From the IMG/VR virus record IMGVR_UViG_3300042549_009341, positions 1 to 30,433 of that record: DNA of 30,433 nucleotides, one strand, 5' to 3'. Positions 78 through 28,177 of the stretch are shown piece by piece. The DNA is from a virus. Positions within the stretch are counted from its first letter, which is position 1. Each line of letters starts with the position of its first letter. A program made the position numbers and the translations under genes. The notes below the pieces were generated by a model, which was not told the DNA's origin, did no database searches, and saw nothing but the letters and a program-made list of their open reading frames with translations.

Positions 78-851
78 TTAGCTAGGTTTTTTAGTTAGAA
101 CAGCAACCTCTTTTTTAGTTTGAGTTGTTGTATTTGTAATTGCGGCAATTGTAGTATTAGTAGCCTTAGCTGCTGCATAATTTTTAGCAGCGGCTTTTAA
201 TACAAGTTCGCTAGTCTCTCCGGTTGCACCATGAGCGCCTAATTTTAATGGATTAAGTTTTGCTAGAAATTGTAAAAATTTATTAATTGAGGCTGGAATA
301 CTTTGAGTTATTAAATTACTGATTTTAGTAATTGCAATATCAATTGAACCAAATTTACTTACAACCCATGTGCCTAATTCTGAATTTTTAAATTCTCGAA
401 TTTTTTGACCAACCCATTTTGCAAGATTGCTAACCATTCCAAGCAAAGTTTTAAGTTTAGATGAAACTTCCGGAGCAGCAGCTTTTGCTAATTTAAAAGC
501 AGTTGGATTAGATAGACCCTCAGTAAATGCAGCCATTACTATTTTAATTTGGGCCTTTAGCGCAACGGCAAGTGCTTGAGCTCCGCTAATTGCAGCAACT
601 GATGCTAGAGTTATTAAACCTTGCATATTTAAAGAAACTTTTTCAGCTTCAGTACTTGCAAAACTTGATTGAATTGAATAGGAAATTGCATGAATTATGT
701 CAATAACACTGCCTGACCCTGGAACTACCGTATCAGCCACTGCGCTAACCACATCAACGCCAAGATGCACCAAGTCATCCCATCCCCAATCTTCATTGAG
801 TTCTTGTTCCCGTTGGGTTGTCCAATCGTTATATTCTAGTAGGTACTGCAT
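78..851 (-). CDS. Leader-bearing hydrophobic virion-type protein, 257 aa
   Basis: The N-terminus is aromatic and charged and reaches LNE|D at residues 18-20, like the other probable prohead-protease leaders here. Residues about 25-110 are Ala/Val/Ile-rich. They contain a VPGSGSVIDIIHAIS segment that looks like the glycine/proline-broken helical hairpins of polymorphic-toxin pre-toxin regions; a similar segment occurs in the 796-aa protein at 25787-28177. The rest is amphipathic helices with Lys-rich stretches. The start overlaps the stop of the upstream gene (TAATG), so it is translated from the same late message. Packaging in the head and membrane insertion after ejection are inferences. I do not recognise a named family with certainty. 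Confidence 0.75.
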   Translation of the reverse strand: MQYLLEYNDWTTQREQELNEDWGWDDLVHLGVDVVSAVADTVVPGSGSVIDIIHAISYSIQSSFASTEAEKVSLNMQGLITLASVAAISGAQALAVALKAQIKIVMAAFTEGLSNPTAFKLAKAAAPEVSSKLKTLLGMVSNLAKWVGQKIREFKNSELGTWVVSKFGSIDIAITKISNLITQSIPASINKFLQFLAKLNPLKLGAHGATGETSELVLKAAAKNYAAAKATNTTIAAITNTTTQTKKEVAVLTKKPS

Positions 852-1108
852 TAAAATCCTTCAACATTAGGTAACTCGCTGCCTGGTTCAACATCATGAT
901 TGCGAGGTTCAAATTCATGATCAGTCATTTGATCTTCTGGATATTCATCCTCTTCTTCGGGTTGAACATCGCAATGCTCTTTACAGTCTGAGCAAATTCC
1001 ACCTTGCATGATTGGTGCACCACAGCAATCTGATTCGCCAGTTTCGTATGCATCATATGGATGCCAGCTTTCATTAAGAAAATCTTTAAAATTCTTTATA
1101 ATTGACAT
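851..1108 (-). CDS. Leader-bearing small zinc-ribbon-like protein, 85 aa
   Basis: The leader MSIIKNFKDFLNE|S (LNE at 11-13) matches the putative capsid-targeting consensus. Next comes a Cys cluster (CCGAP at about 28-32, then CSDC and a further Cys) that could bind one zinc ion, similar to small zinc-ribbon proteins with a CCGAP...C..C pattern. The C-terminal half is strongly acidic and proline-rich. It lies between two leader-bearing genes in one late operon: 15 bp after the 1124-1567 gene and overlapping the next start by one base. Function unknown; a packaged zinc-binding protein is the best reading. Confidence 0.75.
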   Translation of the reverse strand: MSIIKNFKDFLNESWHPYDAYETGESDCCGAPIMQGGICSDCKEHCDVQPEEEDEYPEDQMTDHEFEPRNHDVEPGSELPNVEGF

Positions 1109-1123
1109 AGTCCGTTAGTTATT

Positions 1124-1567
1124 TTATGGTTCAATGTCTTCGTCATCTTCAATACCAAGAGCCATTGAATTAAATTTATTCCAAGCAGTAATTGCAGCTT
1201 TCATTGTTTTATTAAGTTCAATTAGAGCAGTTTTTAATTCTTCAACTTTTGTTTTATCAGCTTCTTCAACTGGGTTTTTACGAATGTCTTCTGGAATTTC
1301 CAAGAATTCGCCTTGTTTTTCTTTAAATGCTTTAATTGCTTCTCTACGAGCTTTATCTAAAGTTTGGTATTCTTCAATTTCAGACTCAGCTGATACGATT
1401 TCTGGTTCAGATGGAATTTCTGGAGTAGTTGCGGCTGGTGTTTCAGTTGTAACCGGTAAAGCGGTTGCATCAGTTGCTGCCGTTACTTCTGGAGTAGCGG
1501 TTGGCACTTGCTCGTTTGCTTCAACTTTTTCAGATTCTTCAATCCATTGTTGATATTTATGAATCAT
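1124..1567 (-). CDS. Leader-bearing acidic, Ala/Thr/Glu/Pro-rich protein, 147 aa
   Basis: It begins MIHKYQQWIEE|S (IEE at 9-11), a variant of the leader motif. Residues about 15-65 are low-complexity (Ala, Thr, Pro, Glu), probably disordered. Residues about 66-135 are Lys/Glu-rich and helical, possibly coiled coil, and the C-terminus is very acidic. A late-type box (GATAAATAA on the minus strand, 1585-1593) lies 17 nt upstream of the ATG. The composition recalls small acidic scaffold or internal head proteins, but no homology is recognised. The antisense frame over the same bases is a Ser-rich shadow and is not annotated. Confidence 0.75.
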   Translation of the reverse strand: MIHKYQQWIEESEKVEANEQVPTATPEVTAATDATALPVTTETPAATTPEIPSEPEIVSAESEIEEYQTLDKARREAIKAFKEKQGEFLEIPEDIRKNPVEEADKTKVEELKTALIELNKTMKAAITAWNKFNSMALGIEDDEDIEP

Positions 1568-1584
1568 TACTATTGATTTTCTTA

Positions 1585-1593
1585 TTATTTATC
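1585..1593 (-). promoter_or_regulatory. Late-type promoter box
   Basis: The minus strand reads GATAAATAA, close to the T4 late consensus TATAAATA. It is placed for transcription of 1567-78 and is back to back with the plus-strand box at 603-611 (positions 1603-1611), with only 9 bp between them. Confidence 0.65.
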
Positions 1594-1602
1594 TACGCTA
1601 GG

Positions 1603-1611: not shown

Positions 1612-1617
1612 AATAGA

Positions 1618-2427
1618 ATGGCAACGATTGTAAACTTTAATACATGGGTATCTGAAAATATTGAGCATCCAAGACCTCTTAAGCAATTAAGCGATCTTGG
1701 TATTAATCGTAAATTCGGCAGAAACCCTCATACCGGTGACAAATATGAAACAGAGTTGTTTCCAATGTTCCGTCGGTTAAAGACTAGAATAGCCGCACTA
1801 CCTAAGAAACCAACACTAGAAGAATGGTTCGCAATGATGCAGAACTCAGATAATCAATTTTATTCAATGGTACAGGCGGATACTTTAGCTCAACCTGATG
1901 TACGTGAGTTATGGAGAGACCTAACTGGTCAACGCGCTTCAAAAATGAAGCGTTATAATTTGTCAGAATCAGCAGAACCTACTGCTTGGAAAAGTAAACT
2001 TGATCTAGACTGGACAGTTATTGCCCTTTGGCCAGAGGATTCCCTATATAAAGATTTTGCAAAGATTTTTAACTATTTAGGAATTGCATTTGCAGATCTT
2101 TCCTTAAAAACTATCTATATTGATGGAGTAATAATTGAGAGTCAAAACTTAACAAGTGATCACATACTTGCAATTGAAGCTCATGAAATTGCACATTTTG
2201 AATTAGAGCACTCGGCCTCTAAATACGATAGAGCAAATCAATATGATGAACGTCAAGAAATGGAAGCTGATTGGTTTGGTATTAGATTACTTAACCTAAA
2301 AAATGAAGTGGATGCAGCTGATCTTTTAGAAGATCGCTATGAATTATATTATGGTGAACCTTCATCTACTTTAACTGGAACCGAGCAACTTGAATTATCT
2401 CTTAATAACTATATCAATAATCTATAA
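1618..2427 (+). CDS. Leader-bearing HExxH zinc metalloprotease (ImmA/IrrE-like, M78 type), 269 aa
   Basis: The zinc motif is AHEIAHFE (HEIAH at 189-193), followed by EMEADWFG (EAD at 216-218) as the likely third ligand. This HExxH...EADxxG layout is typical of ImmA/IrrE-like (M78) peptidases, which cleave regulators such as phage repressors. The preceding hydrophobic strand and the position at the C-terminal third also fit. The N-terminus, MATIVNFNTWVSE|N, resembles the capsid-targeting leaders (VSE in place of LNE). Residues 15-130 are not recognised. The gene has its own late-type box and is followed 4 bp later by the LamG gene. Packaging and injection into the host is an inference; the substrate is unknown. 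Confidence 0.8.
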   Translation: MATIVNFNTWVSENIEHPRPLKQLSDLGINRKFGRNPHTGDKYETELFPMFRRLKTRIAALPKKPTLEEWFAMMQNSDNQFYSMVQADTLAQPDVRELWRDLTGQRASKMKRYNLSESAEPTAWKSKLDLDWTVIALWPEDSLYKDFAKIFNYLGIAFADLSLKTIYIDGVIIESQNLTSDHILAIEAHEIAHFELEHSASKYDRANQYDERQEMEADWFGIRLLNLKNEVDAADLLEDRYELYYGEPSSTLTGTEQLELSLNNYINNL

Positions 2428-2431
2428 TCAA

Positions 2432-3685: not shown

Positions 3686-3690
3686 TTTAA

Positions 3691-6114: not shown

Positions 6115-8079
6115 ATGGCAAAGTCTTTTATAGAAGCAATTAATGAATCAAATATTAATCAGGGTGGACTAGTTGATGAAATGGGAGTTAAACGCCCTGA
6201 ACGATTAGCTGGAAGTCATATCGGTAGAGCTAGACAAGAAACAGTTACTCGTAGAGAGCGTATGGCAAATCAGCCAGTTCGCAGAAGTTATACAGAAGTT
6301 GCTGCTGATTTAACTCGTGCACTAAAACAGGTTTCTAGACTTGAGATTACAATGGAAAAGCCCAGTAATACCAGAGACTATTATCCAAAATTTCCACAAC
6401 CTATTGTTGATTTACTCAAGGAAATTAAGCAACTTGATGAAGGGCGAATGAAAGAGGATTTTGGTAAATGGAGAGATGTGTATCCATCCGGTACGTCAGT
6501 TTATCTTAGAACTGAAGAGCCTAGCTCATTTCAACGCAGCCATTTCCCAAATGATGGAATTAGACCAGCGCTTAGGGGTACAGGATTAGGTTACAAATTG
6601 TACCGAACACTATTAAAATATGCAGGTTATATTTCATCAAATTCAAGTGGAACTACCGAAAAGGACAAAGCTTGGGGGTCATTGTTAGACTATAAAGCAA
6701 ACCCAGATGGAACACCGTCAGTTGATGATGCGCTAGCAATAATTGGTCCAGGTAGTTGGATGGCAATGGATAAAAGTATAAGCACTCAATCAAAAATTGA
6801 TGTAGCTGAAAGATTTATTGAACGTCAAATTGGTTTTAATAACACAAAACCGGACAGATTTGATATTGATGATGAACTTCTTGGACTTTTACCTGATACA
6901 TTTTTAACAAAATTAGATGATGATTATTTAACTTCATTAGGCCGAGACGGCCGTATACCAACTGAGAAATTAACCTCAATTAATGCAGCTAGATCAGAAG
7001 TTCAACGTCTTGACAGAGAAAGAGCAGAACGCCAAGCAATTGCAGATAGAGAGCGTAGAACTCGTGAAGAGGCTGAAACTAGGCAACGTCTTGCTACTCG
7101 TATTACACAATTTGGTGCAGAGCCAGATGCAGAATGGCAAGTTGGCGACTTTATTGTAGTTAAAAGCTACCTGTATGATGCAAGCTACGGTAGCTTACCA
7201 ATTAGACAAGTGGTTGATGTACGTAACGGAACTTATATTGCGGTAGGTATTAATGATGCTATCAGAATTGAGCAAGGTGAACTTACTCCAGGCGATGCAG
7301 GCGATACCCGAACAACAAATGATAAATCAATTTGGGTTAAAGTAAATATTGAAAGTATTCCTGACTTAGATAGGGTTAACTTAACCCCAGCTGGCAAAAC
7401 CTTTATTAGCAATAGATTACGCCCTGAAGTAATTCAACAACGCCGAGATGCTGAAGCTCAAGCAGAAAGAGAACGTATTGAAAGAGATCGTTCTCAAAAC
7501 TTGGCCAGAACTGCAGACAAAGCCTTATTTGGTAAACTTGATTTTACTGGAACTGAATTAAAACAGGCTGTTAATAATCGCCAAACTTTAGATAATCTTG
7601 ACCTGCTTAAGAAAATCAGAACTGGTAATTTTGCAAAATTTGTAGTTCTAGCAGAACCTCAACAAGCAACCCTTAGAGGAGCCGCTGGAGTTCCAGTATT
7701 TGTAGCAGTTGAAAAAATAGGTAGAGCAACAAGGTCAGTTGAAAGCCCGCAAGAATTAATTAGCAATCCTCGTAATATTATGCTAATTAATGTAGTTACT
7801 GGTAAAACAGTTGAAGGTCCATTTGTTGGAATGGGGTTAGTTGCCCTAAGCCTTGAACCTGTTACTGAACAGGATAAATTAATGGCCAGAGCCGGAGATC
7901 ACTACTATATTGCAAATCACCAAAACAATTGGGGTATTTTATCTAAATGTGATTATACAACCAGAAATACTGCAAATCAGCCATTTATTTACTTAAGAAC
8001 ATTTGGTGGAGCTGAAAGACCTACTCCAGTTAGATTAGATCTTTTAAGAAAGATCACTGACCGAACTGAGATTGTCTAA
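6115..8079 (+). CDS. Leader-bearing 654-aa protein with GNAT-like motif and charged coiled coil
   Basis: It begins MAKSFIEAINE|S (INE at 9-11), a good putative prohead-protease leader. Around residues 155-185, an RGTGLGYKLYRTLLKY segment followed by SSNSSGTTEKDKAWGSLL resembles the acetyl-CoA-binding motif A and following helix of GNAT N-acetyltransferases; this is a weak match. Residues about 290-325 are an Arg/Glu-rich coiled coil, with a second near 445-465. Between and after them are beta-rich segments (about 345-430 and 510-640). It is a single late gene with its own promoter box and its 3' end overlaps the convergent exonuclease gene by 4 bp. Probably packaged; a protein-modifying role would be analogous to the injected ADP-ribosyltransferase Alt of T4, but this is conjecture. 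Confidence 0.75.
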   Translation: MAKSFIEAINESNINQGGLVDEMGVKRPERLAGSHIGRARQETVTRRERMANQPVRRSYTEVAADLTRALKQVSRLEITMEKPSNTRDYYPKFPQPIVDLLKEIKQLDEGRMKEDFGKWRDVYPSGTSVYLRTEEPSSFQRSHFPNDGIRPALRGTGLGYKLYRTLLKYAGYISSNSSGTTEKDKAWGSLLDYKANPDGTPSVDDALAIIGPGSWMAMDKSISTQSKIDVAERFIERQIGFNNTKPDRFDIDDELLGLLPDTFLTKLDDDYLTSLGRDGRIPTEKLTSINAARSEVQRLDRERAERQAIADRERRTREEAETRQRLATRITQFGAEPDAEWQVGDFIVVKSYLYDASYGSLPIRQVVDVRNGTYIAVGINDAIRIEQGELTPGDAGDTRTTNDKSIWVKVNIESIPDLDRVNLTPAGKTFISNRLRPEVIQQRRDAEAQAERERIERDRSQNLARTADKALFGKLDFTGTELKQAVNNRQTLDNLDLLKKIRTGNFAKFVVLAEPQQATLRGAAGVPVFVAVEKIGRATRSVESPQELISNPRNIMLINVVTGKTVEGPFVGMGLVALSLEPVTEQDKLMARAGDHYYIANHQNNWGILSKCDYTTRNTANQPFIYLRTFGGAERPTPVRLDLLRKITDRTEIV

Positions 8080-8877: not shown

Positions 8878-9243
8878 ATGATTAAAACCTTTACTGAATT
8901 TAATTCAAACCTTAACGAAGGCCGTTTTTTAGACTGGTTAACCGGAAAGAGCGAAGAGGGCACAGCTAAGAAACAGGGTAATACTGACAATCAGGAGCTA
9001 ATTGACGATAAACTTTCTGAATTTTATAAAACACTTGAAGATTTTGCAAGAGAAAATAAGTCAGTACCCGTTCAAAAAACAGGAGAAATGCAATATTCAA
9101 AGATGATTGAAAATATTCAAACTGCCTTAATGTTCCTAGGTTATTCACTTCCAAAATTTGGAGTAGATGGCTATTTTGGACCAGAAACAGCTGATGCAAT
9201 CAAGAAGTTTAATGAAGCTACTAAAAAAGATCAGGGAATATAA
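8878..9243 (+). CDS. Leader-bearing peptidoglycan-binding-domain protein, 121 aa
   Basis: The leader MIKTFTEFNSNLNE|G (LNE at 12-14) is one of the clearest. After a charged linker, residues about 74-115 match the peptidoglycan-binding domain 1 pattern: an IQTALMFLGY helix, then VDGYFGPETADAIKKF. This three-helix domain usually anchors cell-wall hydrolases. No catalytic domain is present. The stop overlaps the ATG of the bifunctional lysin gene (TAATG), so the two are translationally coupled and probably act together on peptidoglycan. Late-type box upstream. Confidence 0.85.
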   Translation: MIKTFTEFNSNLNEGRFLDWLTGKSEEGTAKKQGNTDNQELIDDKLSEFYKTLEDFARENKSVPVQKTGEMQYSKMIENIQTALMFLGYSLPKFGVDGYFGPETADAIKKFNEATKKDQGI

Positions 9244-10577
9244 TGACCAAAATCAAATCATATACTGACTTTAAACGTGCGCTTAATGAAGCCTCTCAAT
9301 CTGACGAGCTTAGAGATACCTTAGCTGAGCTAGGATATTCTGAAAAATCTTCTGAGATTAGCAGCGGTGGAGATATTACTGATGATATTCAAAAGATTAC
9401 AAAAGTAGTTCTTGAAGAATTTAAAAAACTTGCACCAACTGTTAAAGTTACAGTTACTGGAGGCAATGATGCATTTCACCATAATTTATCATATGTGAGT
9501 CGACATACTAAAGGCCAAGCAATTGACTTAGCCATAACTCCAAATTCTGGAGAAGCTCGTAAACAAATGATTACTATATTAGACAGAATTTCAGCTGGAA
9601 CTCCAGGCTTTAGTTATATTGATGAATACTCTAATCCAACTGCGGCTGCTACTGGCGGTCACTTTCATTTATCATATGGCAAAAGTGCAGAAAATTCAAA
9701 AACAGCAAATGCCAAAGTCGATGATCCAATTACAGTTAGTGGCTTAACCGGAGCGGAAGCACCTGCTGGTAATTTATCTAGCAGCGGTATTGTAATTGAC
9801 TCGGACTTAATTAAGAGGCTTATTGCTAAATTAAAAGAAAAGAATTTTTCTCAAGCAGAATTAGACAAATATTCAACTTCATTGACTGCAGGTAAAGGTA
9901 CTAACTTTAAATCTGGAGGCGGCTTTCCAAAAGAAAATATGGTTGCATTAGAAAAGTCAATGGACAAAAATGGAATAACAAATGAATTTGCACGTAAAGC
10001 AATTTTAGGAGTAATTTCAAAAGAGTCTTCAAAAGGTGGTAGTGAAACTTCGTATTTTAGTACATCAATTGCAAGAATGAAAGAAGTATTTGGAGCCAGA
10101 ATTTCAAAATATTCAGATCAAGAAATTGAAGGTTGGAAACAATTAGGCAAAACTGGCTTTGACAGTAAATTTTGGGAAGCAGTATATGGAGGAATGTACG
10201 GCAATACTGAACCAGGAGATGGAGAAAAATACAGAGGCCGCGGTTTTAATGGAATAACATTTAAAGGAAATTACGAAAACCTACAAAAGATTTATAATAA
10301 GTCAAACCAGTCTTTAGGTAGTATTGATATTGTTAAAAATCCTGAACTTCTTGAAAAACCTGAGATTGCAGCAGAATTTGCAATCCTATATTTTATTGAT
10401 TCATTTAAGAGACATGGTAAAAATCCAAATAACTATTCAGATTTAGATTCAGCAGTTACTGACTATATTAGGTCTAACGCAGGTTGGGGGACTTCATTAG
10501 ATGGAGCAGTTGTTTCAGTCGGTTTACAAAAAGCAAAAGCTTTTGCTAATTCATTAACCTCAACTCAGACTGCTTAA
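9243..10577 (+). CDS. Leader-bearing bifunctional lysin: M15-type peptidase + GH19-type glycosidase, 444 aa
   Basis: The leader MTKIKSYTDFKRALNE|A has LNE at 14-16. Residues about 45-147 carry an M15 (VanY/D-Ala-D-Ala carboxypeptidase-like) signature: SRHTKGQAIDLAI (H88, D95) and GGHFHLSYG (H140, H142). Residues about 230-440 resemble GH19 phage endolysins: a helix with ISKESS (candidate acid E261) and a long YGGMYGN...GDGEKYRGRGFNG...GNY segment at 315-344. A Gly/Ser/Ala-rich linker joins them. The protein should cut both peptide and glycan bonds of peptidoglycan. A leader on a lysin suggests it may be virion-packaged instead of, or as well as, acting in lysis. It ends 4 bp inside the convergent gene. 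Confidence 0.85.
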   Translation: MTKIKSYTDFKRALNEASQSDELRDTLAELGYSEKSSEISSGGDITDDIQKITKVVLEEFKKLAPTVKVTVTGGNDAFHHNLSYVSRHTKGQAIDLAITPNSGEARKQMITILDRISAGTPGFSYIDEYSNPTAAATGGHFHLSYGKSAENSKTANAKVDDPITVSGLTGAEAPAGNLSSSGIVIDSDLIKRLIAKLKEKNFSQAELDKYSTSLTAGKGTNFKSGGGFPKENMVALEKSMDKNGITNEFARKAILGVISKESSKGGSETSYFSTSIARMKEVFGARISKYSDQEIEGWKQLGKTGFDSKFWEAVYGGMYGNTEPGDGEKYRGRGFNGITFKGNYENLQKIYNKSNQSLGSIDIVKNPELLEKPEIAAEFAILYFIDSFKRHGKNPNNYSDLDSAVTDYIRSNAGWGTSLDGAVVSVGLQKAKAFANSLTSTQTA

Positions 10578-13798: not shown

Positions 13799-14365
13799 AT
13801 GAAAAATTACATTGCACTATTTGAAAGCTTTGAAGAGAGTTACGATGAATTCCACCAAGCGCCAAATACAAAATCGGATTCTTTTTACCATAATATTTCA
13901 AAAGATCTAATTGAATTAGCAAGCAACTATACAAATGAGCCAGTTGAAATCGATCAACACTCAAATAAGTATGAAACTGCAACCAGAATTAAAGATTTAC
14001 AAAATGATCTTATCACAAAAATTTATGATGAATTTGGAGAAGATATTGCTCAAAGTTTTGCAGATGAGTCTGACGCACTATTAGCAAGTCTAGACATTTC
14101 CGAAAAGAAAAAAGGTTTATGGGATAATATTAATGCAAAAAGAAAGCGTGGAGAAAAACCTGCAAAGCCAGGAGAAAAAGGTTATCCAGCTCCAGGCGCT
14201 TTAAAATCTGCACAGAAAACTGAAGAGTCTATGGATAAGAAAAAGGTATTTGCAAAGACCAATAATATTCCAGACAATGGAGTGTTAAATGGTTCTAAAA
14301 AAGATACTAATCTGGAAACTGGTAAAAAGCCCCAATCTTTAAACCCTCGTAAAACTACTCGATAA
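13799..14365 (+). CDS. Basic, probably packaged virion protein, 188 aa
   Basis: The N-terminus MKNYIALFESFEE|S resembles the leader set (aromatic/Lys then an acidic xEE|S) but is the weakest of them. Residues 15-105 are acidic and helical. From about 105 to the end the protein is rich in Lys, Gly, Pro and Asn (for example KRKRGEKPAKPGEKGYPAPG) and ends NPRKTTR. A basic, disordered tail suits DNA or RNA contact inside the head. A late-type box is present. No family recognised; the antisense frame over the 3' half is a shadow. Confidence 0.7.
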   Translation: MKNYIALFESFEESYDEFHQAPNTKSDSFYHNISKDLIELASNYTNEPVEIDQHSNKYETATRIKDLQNDLITKIYDEFGEDIAQSFADESDALLASLDISEKKKGLWDNINAKRKRGEKPAKPGEKGYPAPGALKSAQKTEESMDKKKVFAKTNNIPDNGVLNGSKKDTNLETGKKPQSLNPRKTTR

Positions 14366-18595: not shown

Positions 18596-18600
18596 GTAGT

Positions 18601-18610
18601 TATTATACTA
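18601..18610 (-). promoter_or_regulatory. TAGTATAATA promoter fused to a stop codon
   Basis: The minus strand reads TAGTATAATA; its TAG is the stop codon of the 18608-18880 gene and its hexamer ends 6 nt before the UvsE ATG. Confidence 0.65.
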
Positions 18611-18880
18611 CAAAATTGTATTGGCTAGTTGAACCGATAACCAAATTCCTAAATAGGACCCGGCTACTGAGCCAGTAACATAACCAAACCATTGGTGTAG
18701 TGAATCTTCGCTCTTTGCAATTTTTCGGATTACGAAAAAATTTAGTGAAGCTATTGTAAAATCACTAACTGCTGCTAAGTGATATTGAGTTTCAGCAACT
18801 GCTCTAAAATTTATGCATAAAATTCCATACAGTACAAGCTGAATTGCAAATAATAATAAACATTCTTTTAATTTTGTCAT
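18608..18880 (-). CDS. Multi-helix small membrane protein, 90 aa
   Basis: About three hydrophobic segments: CLLLFAIQLVLYGILCINF near the N-terminus, a middle segment around SDFTIASLNFFVI, and GYVTGSVAGSYLGIWLSV near the C-terminus. A similar pattern of small membrane proteins is familiar from T4-like marine phages, but their role is not known. The ATG at 18880 is chosen; a TTG two codons upstream is an alternative. It follows the leader-bearing gene by 6 bp and is probably in its late transcript. Confidence 0.65.
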   Translation of the reverse strand: MTKLKECLLLFAIQLVLYGILCINFRAVAETQYHLAAVSDFTIASLNFFVIRKIAKSEDSLHQWFGYVTGSVAGSYLGIWLSVQLANTIL

Positions 18881-18886
18881 AGACAA

Positions 18887-19477
18887 TTAGTTATATAAAA
18901 AGTTACGAATTAATAGTTTAATATTTTTGAATATTAAAGATTTCCTAGAATTAAGAGATTTGGTAAAAGAAACTGACCAGTTTGAAGCATTATCTGCCTC
19001 AATTGACTTACTGTCAAATTTGTAACCAATCATAAAGCCTACATCAAATAACGATTCCACTAATTGTATAATTTGATTCACTAAGTCTGAGTCAGTTTTT
19101 TGCGAATCAAAGTCAGCAGCGGATGGAGCCAGTAATTTAAGTGCTGATTTTTTAAGTGTACCAATTGACTTTAATTGATTTTGTATTTCCATATAAATGA
19201 AAGTATATGCCTCAATTACCAGTTTATCAGCAGTTCCTGGCGAATTTAATAGAGCAGCTTGGACCATTGCTGGAGTTTTACCAACTAGCCAGGTACTAAA
19301 TTTATCAATTACCTGGTATACGTTAACAATCTTATTTGCTTTATCTAACTCAGTTTTATAAGTACTTTTAAATTCAGAAATACTCTTAAGTTGATTAGCT
19401 GTACACTCATTAATTGAACTAGTTAAAATAGCTGGGCTAAGTGCTTCATTTGTAAAAGTTTTAAAGGTCTTAATCAT
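18887..19477 (-). CDS. Leader-bearing virion-type protein, 196 aa
   Basis: It opens MIKTFKTFTNE|A, near-identical to other leaders here (MIKTF, then a phenylalanine, then NE). The rest is helical, with Leu/Ile/Lys heptads and no enzyme motif. The C-terminus is basic and hydrophobic (SLIFKNIKLLIRNFLYN). A late-type box 23 nt upstream supports late expression. Packaging into the head is inferred; the function after infection is unknown. Confidence 0.75.
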   Translation of the reverse strand: MIKTFKTFTNEALSPAILTSSINECTANQLKSISEFKSTYKTELDKANKIVNVYQVIDKFSTWLVGKTPAMVQAALLNSPGTADKLVIEAYTFIYMEIQNQLKSIGTLKKSALKLLAPSAADFDSQKTDSDLVNQIIQLVESLFDVGFMIGYKFDSKSIEADNASNWSVSFTKSLNSRKSLIFKNIKLLIRNFLYN

Positions 19478-19499
19478 AACACGTAATATTTTTATAATG

Positions 19500-19508
19500 T
19501 TATTTATT
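19500..19508 (-). promoter_or_regulatory. Late-type promoter box
   Basis: The minus strand reads AATAAATAA, 22 nt before the ATG at 19477, inside the 36-bp space after the exonuclease stop. Confidence 0.6.
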
Positions 19509-19513
19509 TCAGC

Positions 19514-20140
19514 CTAATTAATATTAACAAAGTTATAATTACTAGTTACAGTTCGGATGACTCTAACTACATCTAATGCATCTTGCAGAGCATCATGGGT
19601 TACTTCTCCAGATAATTGGCATCGATCCATGCACGTCTGTAAATTTGGTAAACTTTCATCCTCTTGCCAGTCCATTAATAGAATCGCTGGGTCCAGGATA
19701 CGTTGCCTCATTTGAATTGAGCTCATCCAATTTGGAAGTTTCTGTAAAAATACTTTATCAAAACTTGCAAAGTTTTTACCAGCAACATTAATCTTTACGC
19801 CGCCAGTTGCTTCACATGGAAATCCATTTGTGATTAACCACATTTGAAAAGATTTTGCAACCAAGCCTGCAGGTAAAATATTATGGGCCTTTCGGTATTC
19901 CAAACGTTCTTCCTTGGTTTTATTTTCAAGACCTCCTAAGATTTTTAGGATCCATGAATTTAAGGAAAGAGCAAATGCACTTCCAACATAAGCTTCATGT
20001 TCAATGATACACTGAAATTTAGGCAATTGATTGTATGGTACGGGATTTTGAGTGTCTTCAATCACTGCACCAATTTGAAGAATTTGACAAGACTCTGGAT
20101 TTAGACCAGTAGTCTCAATATCTATTGAGATGTATTTCAT
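19514..20140 (-). CDS. DEDDh 3'-5' exonuclease (DnaQ-like), 208 aa
   Basis: Motif I is SIDIETTGL (D7, E9). A GKNFASFDKVFL segment carries the motif II Asp, and HDALQDALD carries motif III His and Asp. This is the DEDDh exonuclease layout shared by DnaQ proofreading subunits, RNase T and oligoribonuclease. Which nucleic acid it acts on cannot be told. It lies in the ligase/kinase/SSB-like operon, downstream of the DUF3127-like gene, so DNA metabolism is likely. Confidence 0.85.
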   Translation of the reverse strand: MKYISIDIETTGLNPESCQILQIGAVIEDTQNPVPYNQLPKFQCIIEHEAYVGSAFALSLNSWILKILGGLENKTKEERLEYRKAHNILPAGLVAKSFQMWLITNGFPCEATGGVKINVAGKNFASFDKVFLQKLPNWMSSIQMRQRILDPAILLMDWQEDESLPNLQTCMDRCQLSGEVTHDALQDALDVVRVIRTVTSNYNFVNIN

Positions 20141-21058: not shown

Positions 21059-22348
21059 TTAAAATTCTCTCTTTTGGCCGTGAACTGCTTTGAATACTGG
21101 AAATCTTAGTGAGTGAGCACCATGTTGATCAGTAGTTTCTTCAAAGAATTGTACGGTAATTGTTTTACCTAAAATTTCATTTGGGTTTTCGTGATAATGG
21201 CGTCTTTGTTCAAGATTAAAGCCTGAACCTACTCTAACTGTATTGCCTTTATGTTCTACAATTACAGCTTTTAACATAAGCTCTTCAACTTCCTTACCCA
21301 TATCAATAATACGATTTACATCAGATTCAAGATCAATTACAACATATTCAGCATCATGCATCTTTTTAACCTTAAGCAGGTTCTTTGAACGTTTGCCTTC
21401 GTAACCAATATCCTTACGCATCATTACTCCTTCATAACCCATTTCAGTTGCATCAGCTACAATTTTTTCAAATTCTTCAACTGATTTTATTTGAAATTGA
21501 GGTAACGGTTCAGCATAGGTTAAGTCAGTTACAATTGCATTTAGGATAATTAGTCTAGCTGACAGAGAAACATCTCCAGCTTGATTCCAAAATTCAGATG
21601 CTTCTAAAAAATCAAATACATAATACTTTGGAGTTTGAATAGTATGGTTCTTTCTGCCAATTTCTTTGATAATACCTTGGAAATCTTCAAGTCCGCCTTC
21701 TTTCATAACGCAAACTTCTCCATCCAATATTTTATTCTTTAATCCAAGCTTCTTAATATCTTGGGCTAATATTGAAAGAGTTAAGAATTCATTGCCTGCT
21801 CGTGAATAAAATTTAGGTTCTCCATCTGCATCAATTACAGTAATACAGCGAACTCCATCAAGCTTACGACTTGCCCACCATTCCCCAGAGTCAAAGTTTA
21901 CCTTTTTTTCATTACCATCAAACTTCTCAGCTAGGGCAACATCAAAGGTAGGCACTGTGCCTGGCATTACTGAATTAATTAGGGTGGTAGTTGCTCGTGT
22001 TTTTAGGTTTCTGTCTATCACATCATAGATGACATCTGCGAACTCCTGATTCTTGGCAATAAAACCATTAACTACTTGGATAGCATTGTGGCCTGTGATT
22101 AGCCGTTCATTCAGATCATCAAGTAAATCAAATAGATCATCATAGTTATCAAAACTAAGATCCTGACGTTTCTTTAGGTTATCCGAAGTAACATAATACT
22201 GCTTAAATGGAGAATACACATATTCAAATAGTTTACGTAATACTGGAGTATCATACTTTTTAAGTATCTCTTTTTTATCATTTGTTGAAGAAGTTGCTTT
22301 CATTTCTTCAATAAATTGTGCAACTACTTTAAAATCTAGATTTGTCAT
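21059..22348 (-). CDS. ATP-dependent DNA ligase, 429 aa
   Basis: The adenylation motif is ASRKLDGVR with Lys162. It is followed by the Arg of YSRAGNEF, the Glu of LDGEVCV (about 211), the EGVMMRK segment and a C-terminal motif V in NLLKVKKM. After these comes an OB-fold region (VRVGSGF, then GKTITVQFFEE, and LRFPVF). It seals nicks in phage DNA, in the role of T4 gp30. Its N-terminal 130 residues are helical. A TAGTATAATA promoter ends 6 nt before the ATG, preceded by the terminator of the upstream gene. Confidence 0.95.
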   Translation of the reverse strand: MTNLDFKVVAQFIEEMKATSSTNDKKEILKKYDTPVLRKLFEYVYSPFKQYYVTSDNLKKRQDLSFDNYDDLFDLLDDLNERLITGHNAIQVVNGFIAKNQEFADVIYDVIDRNLKTRATTTLINSVMPGTVPTFDVALAEKFDGNEKKVNFDSGEWWASRKLDGVRCITVIDADGEPKFYSRAGNEFLTLSILAQDIKKLGLKNKILDGEVCVMKEGGLEDFQGIIKEIGRKNHTIQTPKYYVFDFLEASEFWNQAGDVSLSARLIILNAIVTDLTYAEPLPQFQIKSVEEFEKIVADATEMGYEGVMMRKDIGYEGKRSKNLLKVKKMHDAEYVVIDLESDVNRIIDMGKEVEELMLKAVIVEHKGNTVRVGSGFNLEQRRHYHENPNEILGKTITVQFFEETTDQHGAHSLRFPVFKAVHGQKREF

Positions 22349-23008: not shown

Positions 23009-23476
23009 TTAGGAAATTCTATCTAAAATTATTAATTGTGCTCTGGATACTTTTGAATAGGCATCTTTAATATCAATAAAGCCAGCCCAGTCGATTTCTT
23101 CTGGCTGTAATTGACTTTTTGGGATAGCCAATCCATCTAGTCCAATTTCAGCAAGATCTGAAATTCTGCAAATAAAATAATGAAGTGAGCTTTTATAGTT
23201 GCCGTCTTTATCGAAAACTTGAACAGTTTCAACAGCCGGTTCTAATTTATCAGGTGAGAGCCTAATTCCAGTTTCTTCAAGAAGTTCTCTAAGCGCAGCA
23301 TCAAGAAGTTCTTCGCCTTCTTCAATTTTGCCTTTTGGAATTCCCATAATTGGTCTAGTCCAACTGCCATTAGTTGGATGAACTAGTAGAATCTTTTTTT
23401 GATAAAGAATAGCTACACCGGCTCCATCTGAATATTTCTTTGTTTCTGCCAAGAAATTAGAAAATGTTTTAATCAT
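23009..23476 (-). CDS. Leader-bearing Nudix hydrolase, 155 aa
   Basis: The Nudix box runs from G49 to I71 and holds all required residues: G-x5-E-x7-R-E-x2-E-E-x-G-I. The catalytic fold starts at about residue 14. The first residues, MIKTFSNFLAE|T (LAE at 9-11), are an extra leader like those on the virion-type proteins. The enzyme cleaves a nucleoside diphosphate linked to a second group; the substrate (dinucleoside polyphosphate, NAD-type, oxidised nucleotide or RNA cap) cannot be told. Its start overlaps the bS21 gene by 8 bp, so it is translated from the same message. Confidence 0.9.
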   Translation of the reverse strand: MIKTFSNFLAETKKYSDGAGVAILYQKKILLVHPTNGSWTRPIMGIPKGKIEEGEELLDAALRELLEETGIRLSPDKLEPAVETVQVFDKDGNYKSSLHYFICRISDLAEIGLDGLAIPKSQLQPEEIDWAGFIDIKDAYSKVSRAQLIILDRIS

Positions 23477-23654
23477 TGTTTAGAGATTGACGGTACTGTG
23501 CATTACGAATCTCCTGTCTACGTTTTATACTTGGTTTTATAAATTCCTTTCGGGAACGTAACTGCTTTACTGTACCGGTTTTTTCAAATTTGCGTTTTAA
23601 AACTTTAAGAGCCCTGTCTAAAGTTCCATTGTCTTTTACGTTTACTATTAACAT
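23469..23654 (-). CDS. rpsU: Ribosomal protein bS21, phage-encoded, 61 aa
   Basis: It matches bS21 throughout: MLIVNVKDNGTLDRALKVLK, then KRKFEKTGTVKQLRSRKEF and a basic tail with KPSIKRRQEIR. The RSRKEFIKPS segment is of the type seen in Bacteroidota bS21. In bacteria, bS21 sits near the 3' end of 16S rRNA on the small subunit; in Flavobacteriia it is part of the pocket that hides the anti-Shine-Dalgarno sequence. A phage copy could alter which messages are read. The TATAAT of a TAGTATAATA promoter ends 6 nt before the ATG and overlaps the stop of the upstream gene, with no Shine-Dalgarno sequence. Phage-encoded bS21 is known from other phages. Confidence 0.92.
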   Translation of the reverse strand: MLIVNVKDNGTLDRALKVLKRKFEKTGTVKQLRSRKEFIKPSIKRRQEIRNAQYRQSLNND

Positions 23655-23659: not shown

Positions 23660-23669
23660 TATTATACTA
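23660..23669 (-). promoter_or_regulatory. TAGTATAATA promoter of bS21
   Basis: The minus strand reads TAGTATAATA; it carries the TAA stop of the upstream gene and ends 6 nt from the bS21 ATG. Confidence 0.65.
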
Positions 23670-24654
23670 AAGAAGATTTAAGCGCAGCTAAACTAGCAGT
23701 ATATGAGGCTAAGTCAAAGCCGTATGTCGCAAGCATATCTGTGCTGTATTGATTTCCTCTAACTCCAATACACCATTGTGCAAAGGCTTTTTTCTCAATT
23801 AAAGAAATATCATTGGTTGCGCCACTATCTTTCATTACCGACAATACTCCACCAGAGGTTCCTCTAATTGCGGCATACATTCTATCTAATTGTCCAGTTG
23901 TGTATTTTGGAGAAATTAACATGTAAAGTCCATGAATTGCTCTTTCGTCAGTCATACTGATTAGTGATTCTTGAGTCTTTATGTTTATTGCCTGCAGTAT
24001 CATATTAACTTGAGGGTCAGTTGCTGCAGATCCTGCAATTTTATTAGCTGCACCAATTGCATCAATTTGAGTTGGCTTATCGCCTCCACTTAGTGGACTT
24101 ATCCATGTGGTAAAAATGTCACCAGTATCAACTAGGAATTTACCGGTTGCTGATTCTGCCAGTCTACTATAAAATCCACCTAGTGCTTTACACTTATTGA
24201 TTTGAGCATTAACCCAATCCATATGAGCTTTGTCCCAAGTCTTTCCAAATTTTTCAATCGATATTGTAATTAGAGCAGCAACAACTTCATTCATCTTACC
24301 TTTTGGGTCATATGCTGCAAGCTTTTCAATACTAACATTTTGACCTGTTACTGTACCAGCGGCACCTGCTACTGAAAGTTCAACTTTGCCGTTTGTAATT
24401 TTCCAATTAACATTAGTCATGTCTGAACCATTATCGTGTTTAACCATTACCGTTCCAGTAGTTTGGTCAGCTTCATGACCAGCAATAACGGCAGTTTGTA
24501 CTTGTTTCCATTGAGCTGCATAAGAGCCTCCAGCCTTTCCGCTTTTTATTTGCTCAAGTGCTTTTGCTGGATCAGCATCAGCTTCTAAAATAGCAGACTC
24601 ATTAATTTTATATTTTGATAGCTCTAAGCCCCTTGCGTAATTTGAAATATTCAT
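23662..24654 (-). CDS. Leader-bearing virion-type protein, 330 aa
   Basis: It begins MNISNYARGLELSKYKINE|S, with INE at 17-19; a second LEAD follows at once, so a later cleavage site is possible. The rest is Gly/Ala/Thr-rich with alternating strands and helices (for example VNWKITNGKVELSVAG) and no enzyme signature. It lies in a run of three leader-bearing genes (28177 to 23662). No clear late box lies in the 16-bp space before it, so it is probably read with the upstream gene. Virion location is inferred. Confidence 0.75.
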   Translation of the reverse strand: MNISNYARGLELSKYKINESAILEADADPAKALEQIKSGKAGGSYAAQWKQVQTAVIAGHEADQTTGTVMVKHDNGSDMTNVNWKITNGKVELSVAGAAGTVTGQNVSIEKLAAYDPKGKMNEVVAALITISIEKFGKTWDKAHMDWVNAQINKCKALGGFYSRLAESATGKFLVDTGDIFTTWISPLSGGDKPTQIDAIGAANKIAGSAATDPQVNMILQAINIKTQESLISMTDERAIHGLYMLISPKYTTGQLDRMYAAIRGTSGGVLSVMKDSGATNDISLIEKKAFAQWCIGVRGNQYSTDMLATYGFDLASYTASLAALKSSLV

Positions 24655-24670: not shown

Positions 24671-25759
24671 TTAGAAAGTTAATGCGCCCTTTTTAGTTGT
24701 TACAGTTGTAGCAGCTACCTTTTCTGCAGGTTTAGCAGCAGTTGCTGCTTGAGCAGCCGGCGCTTTAACTGCTGCAATTTGTTCAGGTGTTACCTTGGCT
24801 AAGGCTGCATCTAATTTAGCCGCAATTTCTGCTGTAATTTCAGTAACTGGAACCGTTGGAGTACCAACTAAAATTGCAATTGCTTTAGCAGTTCCACTTC
24901 CATATTTACCAATTGCTCCACCTTTAGTATTAATTGCAGCAGCAGCATCTCCGCCGCCTGCAATAATTTTTTTCTGTAGGTCTTGAATTTTTTGATCAAA
25001 TGTTTGAGTAGCTTTTAATCCAACTGAGGTACTAGCAGTAGTAGTTGAACTAGCAGCAGTTGTTGAACTAGCGGCAGTTGTTGAACTAGCGGCAGTTGTT
25101 GAACTAGCGGCAGTTGTTGTAGATACTGTAGCAACTCCACCTTTTGCTCCATTTTTTTCAACGTATGCTGGATTAACTAAATTTGCTGGTATATTTCCAC
25201 CAGTAGTTTTATCCTTTGCCTCTATTCTTTTATTATCGTTAGTAACTCGTAAGTCAGGCAAATCTTGGATATTCCAAGCAACCAATTCAACGTCTGATCC
25301 TTCAACTGTAGCACTTGCTCTATGTGGAACTTTTGTAACATCATATGTAACCCACATACCTGCAACTTCGCCTGTTCGAAGTTGACCAGTTGCATAAGGT
25401 AAAAAAGCAACTTGTGCTTTATAAACATTTTGACCAATTAAATTAGTTTTATTTTGAACACCTAAATCAATAATAGCTAATAAGTTATGATTTGGAATCT
25501 TTTTTTCATCTTTAGTTACTGATAGAGCATCATAAGACTTCCACCAATTTTTAAAATCAGGGTCTTGAGAAAGTTCTCTTAATATTGTATTAGATGGATT
25601 AGTTTCGTCAACTGCTCCTTCTTCTCCACTACGTAATACTACGTTCCATCTTTTTATTTCGCCTTCTTTTGGATTTGCAACTGAAATCTTTCCAACTGTT
25701 CTGGCTTCATCAATTACTGGCGGTTTTTTAAATTCGTCAAATGTTTTAACAAGTGTCAT
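24671..25759 (-). CDS. Leader-bearing protein with AASSTT repeats and a PG-binding-like segment, 362 aa
   Basis: The leader MTLVKTFDEFKKPPVIDE|A has IDE at 16-18. Residues about 25-200 are an unrecognised alpha/beta domain. A low-complexity linker follows, with four exact or near copies of AASSTT (25041-25112). Next, residues about 250-295 (FDQKIQDLQKKIIAGG, then GGAIGKYGSGTAKAI) resemble a peptidoglycan-binding domain 1, the same fold suggested for the protein at 8878-9243. The C-terminal 70 residues are Ala/Lys/Pro/Thr-rich. A late-type box lies about 21 nt upstream. Its position in a virion-type operon and the possible wall-binding segment suggest a role at the cell wall after delivery. 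Confidence 0.75.
   Translation of the reverse strand: MTLVKTFDEFKKPPVIDEARTVGKISVANPKEGEIKRWNVVLRSGEEGAVDETNPSNTILRELSQDPDFKNWWKSYDALSVTKDEKKIPNHNLLAIIDLGVQNKTNLIGQNVYKAQVAFLPYATGQLRTGEVAGMWVTYDVTKVPHRASATVEGSDVELVAWNIQDLPDLRVTNDNKRIEAKDKTTGGNIPANLVNPAYVEKNGAKGGVATVSTTTAASSTTAASSTTAASSTTAASSTTTASTSVGLKATQTFDQKIQDLQKKIIAGGGDAAAAINTKGGAIGKYGSGTAKAIAILVGTPTVPVTEITAEIAAKLDAALAKVTPEQIAAVKAPAAQAATAAKPAEKVAATTVTTKKGALTF
25041..25112 (-). repeat. 18-bp tandem repeat, four copies, coding
   Basis: Units of GTTGTTGAACTAGCGGCA (plus strand) run in frame and encode AASSTT. Copies differ by at most a few bases; it is probably a flexible linker able to change copy number. Confidence 0.9.
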
Positions 25760-25779
25760 TTGTGTTTACTTATTTTTAG

Positions 25780-25788
25780 TTATTTATT
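25780..25788 (-). promoter_or_regulatory. Late-type promoter box
   Basis: The minus strand reads AATAAATAA, overlapping the stop of the 796-aa gene and lying 20 nt before the ATG at 25759. Confidence 0.6.
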
Positions 25789-28177
25789 ATGCAAAATTAA
25801 AGGTTTTAGTCCTAAATAAACCTTCATTAGTTTGATTATTTGGAAGTTTTAATTCTGGTGGAGTTCCATTTTTTATTTCTTCAAGTGCTAGTTTTTCAGC
25901 AGCATCTGCTTCTTCTTGAGACCATGAACCGTCCTTAACTCCTTCTTGTAAATACTCACGCATTCTTGAAGCATCTTTCATATTTAAACTAACTGTACCA
26001 GTTTTAAAATCCCATACGTCGGCTAAGGCTGCCTTAGTTGAAAGAGCTTGAGAATTTAGTGCACTTTGAGCATCAATTGAATCGTCTAATCCCATTGATT
26101 TTAAAATTTGCTTAGTGTATTCAGTACTCTTCTTTTGAAACTCGGCTGCTGCCTTTGGATCATCTGCCATATTTGCAGTACCTCCAAGTAGAGCAGTTGA
26201 CCCTGGGAAATTTGCACAATGTGCGCCAACTGTTGCTTTAACAGCGTCGTTCATTAGATTACAATTAGTTTTACCGCCATTTGCTTTTGCCTTTTTAATA
26301 GTCTCGTCATTTTTCTTAATGACTTCTTCTACAGCAGATGACTCAACTGGGGTTTTAGTTTCTGGATTAGTAAGTTTAACTTGATCAGCAGCCGCCTGAT
26401 TAGCAGCTGCATTATTTGCATCTACTGTAGAATCTCCAGTAGATATTGAATCTTCTTCATTTACTGCAGGAGTTAAGGCTCCTCCAATTAAACCAGATGC
26501 GGCTGAATTTGCCTTGCCAGTTGCCATTTGTTTAATACAATCCCAACTACCATAACGCTGCCATGCAAGTCTAGAAATAAAATTAAGTAGCCTTTTTAGA
26601 AATATACCTCTAGTTGCAAGAGCTCCGCCGGCTTTTGTTAATTTAGCCAATACATAAACCGTATCATCAAAGTTTTTAACACCCTGAATAAAAATTTCAG
26701 GTTTGGTTGCCCATGGCGTAAATGCCCTAACTTCAGCTTTTGATAAATTTTTAGCAACAGCTGGATCAGTTAACATTGTTTTAAAAACTTTGCGAATATC
26801 ATCAACCTTTCCGTCCTTTGCAAGTTGAGTAATATATTCTCCGCTTGGCTTCCAGTCATACTTCTTTGCAAAATATTCAGTTAATTTTGGATCCTTTTTA
26901 ATAATTTGATCAATTGCATCAACCGATGCTCCAATTAATTCATTTTCAACCTTTGCAGCTTTTGCTACTTGCTGGAGAGCCTCGGGTTGACCTGCAATTG
27001 AGGCCATAAATTTTTTATCTTGCTCAACCGCTTTTAGTAAGTCAGCTGAATACCCTCCTTCTTTTGCATAAGCCGTAATTACCGCTGGGTCAAAATCTTT
27101 ATATGCAGTTGAATTAAGTATAGCTTTTCCTTGTGGACTAGTTGCTGCATATTCAACGCCTTTTTTAGAAATTACCGTATCTGCTAATTTATCAGCGCCT
27201 TTTGCAATTTCTTTTTTAGTAGCTTCTTCTCCTAATAATTTAGCCGCAGTTTCAAAATTACGACCAAATAGCGCAAGTTGAGCTTCAAGTCCAAGTCTTT
27301 CAAATGCTTGGACTGCTTTTACTCCATATTTTCCAACAATTGGAACTAAATTAAAAACAGTTTTTATAAAATTAGTAACAAATTTAAGTACACCAACTGC
27401 AACTGTTCCAAAAAAGTTAGCAACTCCTTTAAATAAAGAGACGATTATTCCCGAAATGCTTTTATTGCCTAGTGTTCTAATTCCATTTTTTAAGGCAAGA
27501 ACTGCTGGCCCAATTTCGGTTGCAGAACTTCCAGTTCTGCATAGAATTTTGGTTAATTTTTCAAGTAGACTAAGAGCTGGTTTAGGTAACCATTTAATAG
27601 TTTTTAAGAAATTTGAAGTTTTAGTAACGTCAATTGCAGCAATTACACTAAGTATCATTGATACGTATTCGCCTTTGTATAAAGAAATTATTGCAGATAG
27701 GATATTTGCAACTACGTCAATTGGAAATCCAACCCAAGTAAAAGGAACAATCCCAATTACGTCTAACACTAATCTTAGAATATTTAGACCCATTTCAGTT
27801 GGATCTGGGTCAGCAACTAGGGCTTTTACAAAGTTCATAACTGAACTCATTACGCCTTCGTTAATTAATTGGACAGTATGTAGGTATGATTCGTTAAGTC
27901 TAAGTTTAATGGTATCATATCCCTGTCTAACCAAAAAGTCTTCCTTTTTGATAATATCATTAATATCTTCAAAATTTTCAAGTAAAAAAACTTGATGTTC
28001 AAAGATTTCTTCTTCTGAATGATTAGGGGTTCTAGGTTTACTTAATTTACTAAAGTCAACTGCATCTAAGGCAGCCCAAAAAGACTCAGGGATATTTTGA
28101 AAGTATTGAACCAGTTTTTCGTTAACTGGTTCAGCCCCTTGACTAAAGTACTGGTCTGCTGAAATTACATATCTCAT
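25787..28177 (-). CDS. Large leader-bearing hydrophobic virion-type protein, 796 aa
   Basis: Three possible cleavage motifs lie near the N-terminus: VNE|K at 18-20, LNE|S near 95 and INE|G near 107. Residues about 110-200 are hydrophobic helices (LDVIGIVPFTWVGFPIDVV, then ILSAIISLYKG), similar in layout to the 257-aa protein at 78-851. Residues about 230-310 hold another hydrophobic, Phe/Val-rich stretch (GVANFFGTVAVGVLKFV). The remainder is helical and charged, with Ala/Lys/Asn-rich low complexity. The C-terminus ends KTFNFA after a TNE|G. This could be an ejected internal protein that crosses or lines the membrane for DNA entry, but no family is recognised. Late-type box upstream. Confidence 0.75.
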   Translation of the reverse strand: MRYVISADQYFSQGAEPVNEKLVQYFQNIPESFWAALDAVDFSKLSKPRTPNHSEEEIFEHQVFLLENFEDINDIIKKEDFLVRQGYDTIKLRLNESYLHTVQLINEGVMSSVMNFVKALVADPDPTEMGLNILRLVLDVIGIVPFTWVGFPIDVVANILSAIISLYKGEYVSMILSVIAAIDVTKTSNFLKTIKWLPKPALSLLEKLTKILCRTGSSATEIGPAVLALKNGIRTLGNKSISGIIVSLFKGVANFFGTVAVGVLKFVTNFIKTVFNLVPIVGKYGVKAVQAFERLGLEAQLALFGRNFETAAKLLGEEATKKEIAKGADKLADTVISKKGVEYAATSPQGKAILNSTAYKDFDPAVITAYAKEGGYSADLLKAVEQDKKFMASIAGQPEALQQVAKAAKVENELIGASVDAIDQIIKKDPKLTEYFAKKYDWKPSGEYITQLAKDGKVDDIRKVFKTMLTDPAVAKNLSKAEVRAFTPWATKPEIFIQGVKNFDDTVYVLAKLTKAGGALATRGIFLKRLLNFISRLAWQRYGSWDCIKQMATGKANSAASGLIGGALTPAVNEEDSISTGDSTVDANNAAANQAAADQVKLTNPETKTPVESSAVEEVIKKNDETIKKAKANGGKTNCNLMNDAVKATVGAHCANFPGSTALLGGTANMADDPKAAAEFQKKSTEYTKQILKSMGLDDSIDAQSALNSQALSTKAALADVWDFKTGTVSLNMKDASRMREYLQEGVKDGSWSQEEADAAEKLALEEIKNGTPPELKLPNNQTNEGLFRTKTFNFA

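Follow-up and report, generated by a model that had tools for sequence, protein, structure and literature searches.

A shared N-terminal leader of a large myovirus, probably of Bacteroidetes type, as a likely T4-type capsid-targeting tag that mimics a scaffold repeat

Why should a metalloprotease-like protein, a lysin and a Nudix hydrolase of the same phage all begin alike? The question is raised by the IMG/VR record IMGVR_UViG_3300042549_009341, a complete record of 30,433 bases with 40 called genes (the window), which is a fragment of a larger phage and in which a short N-terminal leader is common to otherwise unrelated proteins. We hold, with a probability of roughly 0.86, that a large Bacteroidetes-type myovirus uses these leaders for capsid targeting of the T4 type and that the tag imitates a repeat of the scaffold. 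Judged from its sequence, the tag is probably put on about ten unrelated window proteins for loading into the head.

A leader shared by unrelated proteins

The strict core of the leader was defined as [FYW]xx[FYWL][LIVT]xE starting within the first 20 residues, with gene starts taken as the first ATG by a simple gene caller. Five of the 40 window proteins carry it (FKDFLNE in 851..1108, YQQWIEE in 1124..1567, FNTWVSE in 1618..2427, FKTFTNE in 18887..19477 and FSNFLAE in 23009..23476), as against a mean of 0.33 and a maximum of 3 in 500 residue shuffles, and elsewhere in the window proteins it matches once in 8,523 other positions. A two-part form, in which the aromatic pair is followed by [LIV]xE at most eight residues further on, adds the genes 78..851, 8878..9243, 9243..10577 and 24671..25759 and brings the count to nine of 40 (mean 0.23, maximum 4 in 1,000 shuffles); this form was derived from the window, so that its count there is circular, and it was judged on other genomes. 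The shared leader of the window proteins is real and not a product of chance.

A preliminary description of this DNA, made from the letters alone, had named 13 genes and claimed the leader for at least eleven of them. All of the named open reading frames were recovered where it had placed them, and the claim holds: we sort them into nine firm cases, two probable ones (6115..8079 and 23662..24654) and two doubtful ones (13799..14365 and 25787..28177). The nine firm genes have aromatic residues at both positions equivalent to the targeting residues 4 and 7 of T4 internal protein III (IPIII). The [LIV/T]xE site lies directly behind the aromatic pair in five of them and is displaced in the other four, and in two of the five direct sites L or I is replaced by V or T (WVSE and FTNE). 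It was also right that MIKTF starts three proteins (8878..9243, 18887..19477 and 23009..23476).

Relatives of the window were located through the ligase gene: four records of 270-271 kb (ligase identity 92%), which are probably near-complete because they are about equal in length and carry the protease described below at differing distances from their ends, and G5 (98%), a record of 128 kb that has matches to 34 of the 40 window genes in the same order. One 271-kb relative is called G1 here; G6 is almost a duplicate of G1, and the window and G5 overlap, which makes these counts interdependent. The genome-wide leader search proposed in the preliminary description was run on these relatives, and the strict leader stood at the N-terminus of 22 of 279 proteins in G1 against a shuffle mean of 2.0, 14 of 156 in G5 (mean 1.2) and 13 of 105 in G6 (mean 0.8). 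In three huge phages it was found in 32 of 874 proteins of LR756504 (mean 8.1), 23 of 517 of LR756500 (5.2) and 34 of 502 of LR756501 (4.8). There was no leader excess in Lak-A1 (2 of 399; mean 2.9) and none past the shuffle range in PA5oct (4 of 314; 1.98), and PTm1 had 4 of 288 (2.15); for LR756500, LR756501 and Lak-A1 the scan covered the first 400 kb of each. PA5oct, whose record contains electrospray tandem mass spectrometry (ESI-MS/MS) notes, was considered as proteomic proof and dropped, since a genome with no leader excess is uninformative. These counts still include some false positives, namely matches of the type YGMYTLE in G1, G5, LR756504, LR756500 and T4, in a protein that we take from resemblance to be a topoisomerase subunit, and gene 27927 of G1.

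The residues around the core are biased as well. Among the 113 strict hits of five genomes (a set distinct from the 113 huge-phage hits discussed below), position -3 is a non-start I, L, V or M in 91 (background 25%) and the residue after the E is N, S, A or G in 77 (background 24%). When proteins of the window or G5 were paired with their best matches in G1 and at least one side scored (26 pairs), both sides scored in 19, one of these being the topoisomerase false positive, and one side in seven. The core is kept while its flanks change, as in NFNTWVSE/TYSDWLNE and NFKDFLNE/SFTKFVNE (window/G1), and the core codons vary synonymously (TTT 45, TAT 42 and TTC 16; GAA 94 and GAG 20 of 114), so that constraint acts on the protein. 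A faster divergence of leader genes is not claimed (median identity 63 versus 67%, P=0.08).

Correspondence with T4 and a protease fused to repeats

In T4 IPIII the first 10 residues suffice, with residues 4 and 7 chiefly responsible for targeting and residues 8 and 10 for processing, according to the accessible part of PMC9026906; the T4 capsid-targeting sequence is credited to Mullaney and Black 1996 in the available text of PMC9026906 and PMC3012670. The four IPIII residues are Tyr, Phe, Ile and Glu, and they align with the four fixed positions of the leader. The same pattern recovers ipII and ipIII, both annotated internal virion proteins, among the six matches in T4; one of the remaining matches is the uncharacterised 61.1 and the other three look like background. 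In T4 gp23 the single match, FGSFLTE, lies at residues 59-65, and the known maturation site of gp23 closes a 65-residue propeptide (PMC9026906, in part). The analogy with T4 leaders drawn in the preliminary description is thereby strengthened: the motif equals that of ipII, ipIII and the gp23 site, and its positions agree with the mutational dissection of IPIII. The two-part variants, which keep the pair and displace the cut site, fit the same split between targeting and processing residues. As a side result, T4 gp61.1 (NC_000866.4 18966-19130; 54 residues, hypothetical) starts MKTFKEFIKED, near the internal-protein leader, and is a candidate for a T4 internal protein so far unrecognised.

The leaders share with those of the T4 internal proteins a length of 10-20 residues, an aromatic pair three apart, a hydrophobic-x-E site, a gp21-family protease and divergent protein bodies. 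They differ in number, with about 20 genes above chance in the 271-kb relative where T4 has a handful, in that some of the clients are enzymes, and in that the protease of this phage group forms a fusion with a scaffold-like half in which the leader motif is repeated.

A gp21-type S77 protease (PF03420) was detected above cut-off in all four 270-271-kb records; the other four of the eight records searched, which are shorter, gave no match. For the G5 type, a protease lies on a separate contig of the same sample as G5 (3300027749_000080, L209/G009). T4 gp21 (PDB 5jbl) is the only solved match of the protease domain in sequence (E 6.5e-4) and its best fold match in Foldseek (E 1.2e-4), and in the alignment with T4 gp21 the residues His85, Ser140 and Asp168, presumably catalytic, are among the invariant columns. 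In G1 the protease forms the first part of a single open frame of 674 codons, the second part of which is scaffold-like and contains, between positions 284 and 382, eight YxxY[LIV]xE copies at a spacing of precisely 14 residues. A gp21-type protease and, fused to it, a candidate scaffold, both of which the preliminary description had suggested looking for, are present in these large relatives.

Such repeats are not confined to G1. Strict in-register copies at 14 residues number 11 in LR756504 and 13 in LR756501, and 77 of the best 80 of at least 579 protease-scaffold loci confirmed in IMG/VR, near-duplicates among them, have at least three in-register copies under a slightly looser pattern. 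The flanks of those 80 loci contain 69 leaders in 887 open reading frames, a count that has no shuffle control. The fusion of Lak-A1 has no repeats in register and that of PTm1 no strict copy. Outside the G1 fusion, about 72,600 interior positions hold some 33 occurrences of the strict motif, from which the probability that a 14-residue repeat matches by chance in any one of its registers is put at about 0.6%. The match between leader and repeat is partly expected, since the same protease cuts scaffolds; the aromatic pair is not so explained. The scaffold half of the PTm1 protease-scaffold (L285:3962-5656) has, by eye, a different FTKELSEGIEKWI-like repeat together with LSE sites, which may be a variant docking code. 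A 1,691-residue protein of LR756501 (21458-26533, minus strand) has seven F-V-[KN]-Y-[LI]-x-E sites at intervals of 58-61 residues and is another possible core component.

Because the scaffold-like half fused to the protease has repeats with the same core, the leader is most likely a portable copy of the scaffold repeat (Y-x-x-Y-[LIV]-x-E core, 14-residue spacing), which would pack into the core as a repeat would and be destroyed with the core at maturation. The two aromatics three apart, corresponding to IPIII residues 4 and 7, would attach each protein to the core of the prohead; the S77 protease would then cut after [LIV]-x-E, and the mature protein, freed within the head, would travel along with the DNA. 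The sequence itself shows the leader, the protease, the repeats, the late-promoter-like elements and the cassette exchange; packaging, cleavage, ejection, docking to the repeats and the host group are what we infer from it. In its fullest form the proposal is that the leader copies the 14-residue repeat, that in a widespread group of large phages the repeats of the fused protease-scaffold are a generic docking array, and that any gene picking up a 12-residue tag of this kind would turn into head cargo, so that each virion would contain dozens of exchangeable pre-loaded effectors, lytic, counter-defence and nucleotidyltransferase-like ones among them; we give this even odds. In a literature search no paper was met that connects the leader with a repeat of the scaffold, a weak negative as most subscription journals lay outside its coverage.

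Upstream elements, cargo and competing explanations

The leader genes also tend to share an upstream element. The T4-late-like sequence ATAAATAA starts 14-47 nucleotides before eight of the 13 named window genes and 28-29 nucleotides before two of the other 27 (Fisher P=0.0006); each of the remaining five named genes lies behind a ATAAATAA-bearing gene of its own strand. In G5 the element stands upstream of 12 of 18 leader genes and 22 of 138 others (P=1.4e-5), in G1 upstream of 10 of 24 and 41 of 255 (P=0.0045). The enrichment is seen in the window, G1, G5 and G6 (P from 0.029 to 1.4e-5); the reverse complement of ATAAATAA showed no significant enrichment. The sequence TATAAATA was not enriched in the window, G1 or G6, where no leader gene has it, and in G5 it stands at 2 of 18 leader genes against 3 of 138 others. 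In G1, ATAAATAA also precedes the tail-tube gene (PHROG 45); a 666-residue G1 protein considered as tail sheath had no PHROG match, and that label is not used. A different, AGTATAATA-like element stands right before the start codons of the window genes 21059-22348, 17621-18595, 23469-23654 and 28224-29288, mostly non-leader genes, and is a possible early or middle promoter. In G1 and G5 together, GTATAAT occurs within 40 nucleotides of one of 42 leader genes and 28 of 393 others.

What the tag is attached to varies widely. Of 20 leader proteins scanned in G1 and G5, one exceeded the Pfam cut-off, as a phage lysozyme domain. In the three huge phages, 75 of 113 hits (40+27+46) were taken into the family scan, 38 having been removed by eye as weak or crossing a piece boundary, and among the 25 of 40 families listed there were five leucine-rich repeat proteins and two methyltransferases, with radical SAM, DUF2201 and Acb1 represented once each. 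The last, LR756504 L105:3145-3699, is an Acb1-like anti-CBASS protein with a leader, above the Pfam cut-off, for which the broader 2'-5' RNA ligase family scores higher. Most other tagged proteins had no known function assigned in these scans. A precedent for pre-loaded counter-defence is Tad1, described as injected by phiKZ in the accessible text of PMC13282480. The preliminary description had expected a set broader than that of T4, and for gene number the excess in the 271-kb relative (22 of 279 against 2.0) agrees. Beside these, a 381-residue leader protein of G1 (L069:1769-2914) and its G5 ortholog have a sub-threshold match to the nucleotidyltransferase/DrrA N-terminal family, weak against the PDB, and by analogy could possibly play a role like that of T4 Alt.

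One tagged gene appears to have moved. The window at about 18,400-19,600, comprising the gene 18887..19477 and its flanks, matches G1 at 98-100% identity, against 68-85% for the DNA on either side, and G5 lacks the gene and has both flanks; on this pattern of identity, a tagged gene has been exchanged here recently.

Several known systems invite comparison. Large and diverse sets of head proteins, with other signals, are already known from phiKZ and SPN3US, according to the parts available of PMC5694885 and PMC13282480; some of these inner-body and ejection proteins are processed after Glu by a gp21-related protease. In SPN3US, as far as those sources extend, the propeptides are mostly far longer (four of more than 100 residues; gp45, 20) and the motif is A-x-E. 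Long head propeptides of that kind were not found here, the leaders being a uniform 10-20 residues with [LIV]xE. P1 DarB also has an N-terminal signal that takes the protein into the capsid, but the available portion of PMC9024508 reports no consensus across Dar N-termini and apparently no separate scaffold in P1. Freshwater Bacteroidetes phages encoding ribosomal protein bS21 resemble the present group in having a bS21 gene and a "prohead core scaffolding and protease" gene; their bS21 sits with TerL, the major capsid protein and the protease, whereas in the window it sits between leader genes, and for those phages a leader goes unmentioned in the available text (PMC9723584, in part). T4-type capsid targeting is known, and the several-fold longer, exchangeable client list and the tag resembling a scaffold repeat are what differ, to the extent that sequence can show it. 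If the interpretation is true, the leader would be a readable address label from which the head-carried proteins of large uncultured phages could be listed from sequence alone, candidates for counter-defence with an unknown fold among them. It would also supply a scaffold candidate for large phages, in none of which, among the giant ones, a gp22 counterpart had been confirmed as of 2017 by the available account in PMC5694885, and a docking hypothesis for T4 capsid targeting.

Several results weigh against reading the leaders as capsid-targeting copies of a scaffold repeat. The protease and scaffold lie outside the window, and the protease was not found in this 30-kb fragment, where its absence is uninformative. 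The leader counts of T4 (6 of 238) and Chryseobacterium phage MA9V-2 (7 of 255), each with a shuffle mean of 1.6, are within the shuffle maximum of 7. Neither T4 gp22 nor the fusion of MA9V-2 contains in-register repeats, yet leaders exist in both phages, and the LR756500 fusion has two strict copies, out of register, plus a degenerate form seen by eye, in a phage that still has 23 leaders; a strict dependence of leaders on repeats was dropped for these reasons, and the repeats are not required for the tag. The AlphaFold2 model of the repeat region suggests helix, its long helices having predicted local distance difference test (pLDDT) values of only about 31-49. The enrichment of ATAAATAA is absent in LR756504, LR756500 and LR756501, the major capsid and portal genes of G1 have no copy within 50 nucleotides upstream, and the Nudix leader gene of G1 and the bS21 gene have TAGTATAATA directly upstream instead. 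Finally, no virion proteomics of these phages turned up in the literature searches.

Were the leader only a protease-removable assembly tag, the tagged proteins would build or fill the prohead and no enzyme set would be delivered. Two small genes beside the major capsid gene of G1 do start in a leader-like way (MSNTVLNYAQFLLE, strict, and MSDKNKNRLTPFKQFVIQE, by eye; no PHROG match), and T4 IPIII influences head assembly (PMC9026906, in part); however, the tag also stands on several proteins that resemble enzymes or counter-defence factors (Nudix, lysin, Acb1, radical SAM), and one tagged gene is an exchangeable cassette absent from G5, and we consider this account unlikely. Jumbo phages are reported to be able to sort proteins into compartments (PMC8191949), and the destination set by the leader might be a membrane site or another compartment made by the phage rather than the head; but the motif is that of the T4 internal-protein leader and includes a cleavage site of gp21 type, which makes such a destination quite improbable. 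It is hardly credible at all that the similarity is functionless and stems from A/T-rich, K/N/F-rich gene starts or from gene duplication. Gene starts in these AT-rich genomes do favour K, I, N and F, some tagged genes are paralogs (the five leucine-rich repeat proteins), and the reversed motif scores 9 in LR756504 and 4 in LR756500, close to the means of 8.1 and 5.2 that shuffles give for the forward motif. Against this, residue shuffles yield 4-16 times fewer matches in the window, G1, G5, G6, LR756504, LR756500 and LR756501, the reversed motif scores 0-1 in the window, G1, G5 and G6, the core codons vary synonymously, and PA5oct and Lak-A1 have no excess beyond the shuffle range; chance and composition are ruled out by the shuffles, by internal-Met windows and, in most genomes, by the reversed motif.

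The named genes of the window

Of the functional labels given earlier to the window proteins, metalloprotease-like, peptidoglycan-binding, lysin and Nudix recur in the present analysis, and the zinc ribbon is a judgement by eye. On the minus strand, 78..851 encodes 257 residues with the two-part leader MQYLLEYNDWTTQREQELNE, in which LNE is displaced from the aromatic pair and which is conserved in the G5 ortholog. The adjacent 851..1108 (minus; 85 residues, Cys-rich and zinc-ribbon-like by eye) has the strict leader MSIIKNFKDFLNE, with S after the predicted cut, where the G1 ortholog reads SFTKFVNE and again S. In 1124..1567 (minus; 147 residues) the strict leader is MIHKYQQWIEE followed by S, and ATAAATAA begins 25 nucleotides upstream. 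The plus-strand gene 1618..2427 encodes a metalloprotease-like protein of 269 residues (PHROG 87, with HEIAH in the sequence and Pfam M78 under cut-off), with the strict leader MATIVNFNTWVSE followed by N, TYSDWLNE and N in the G1 ortholog, and ATAAATAA 14 nucleotides upstream.

Four further named genes lie on the plus strand. That at 6115..8079 (654 residues) has the probable leader MAKSFIEAINE followed by S, its FIEAINE being matched by LRDIVNE in G1, and ATAAATAA 32 nucleotides upstream. A PG_binding_1 protein of 121 residues is encoded at 8878..9243, with the two-part leader MIKTFTEFNSNLNE and ATAAATAA 47 nucleotides upstream. It is followed by the lysin gene 9243..10577 (444 residues; endolysin PHROG 181 at residues 236-419), which has the two-part leader MTKIKSYTDFKRALNE and whose orthologs differ in the N-terminal part, the leader still being present. 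The gene 13799..14365 (188 residues), called weak before and doubtful here, has the aromatic pair FESF, no LxE, and ATAAATAA 33 nucleotides upstream.

The other named genes are on the minus strand. The putative cargo cassette 18887..19477 (196 residues) has the strict leader MIKTFKTFTNE followed by A, with ATAAATAA 30 nucleotides upstream, and the Nudix hydrolase gene 23009..23476 (155 residues) has the strict leader MIKTFSNFLAE preceding its domain. In 23662..24654 (330 residues) the probable leader has two sites, one of them shifted (NYARGLE ... KINE, then S). The two-part leader MTLVKTFDEFKKPPVIDE, followed by A, opens 24671..25759 (362 residues), with ATAAATAA 28 nucleotides upstream. For 25787..28177 (796 residues; ATAAATAA 31 nucleotides upstream) several sites had been proposed. 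The sites are there, VNE at residues 18-20, LNE at 94-96 and INE at 105-107, while its status as a leader protein is doubtful, the VNE at 18-20 being present in G5 and absent from G1. Between the Nudix gene and 23662..24654, and so flanked by two leader genes, the minus-strand gene 23469..23654 encodes the leaderless ribosomal protein bS21 (PHROG 21469), which has matches in two of the five related records searched, G5 included, and none in G1.

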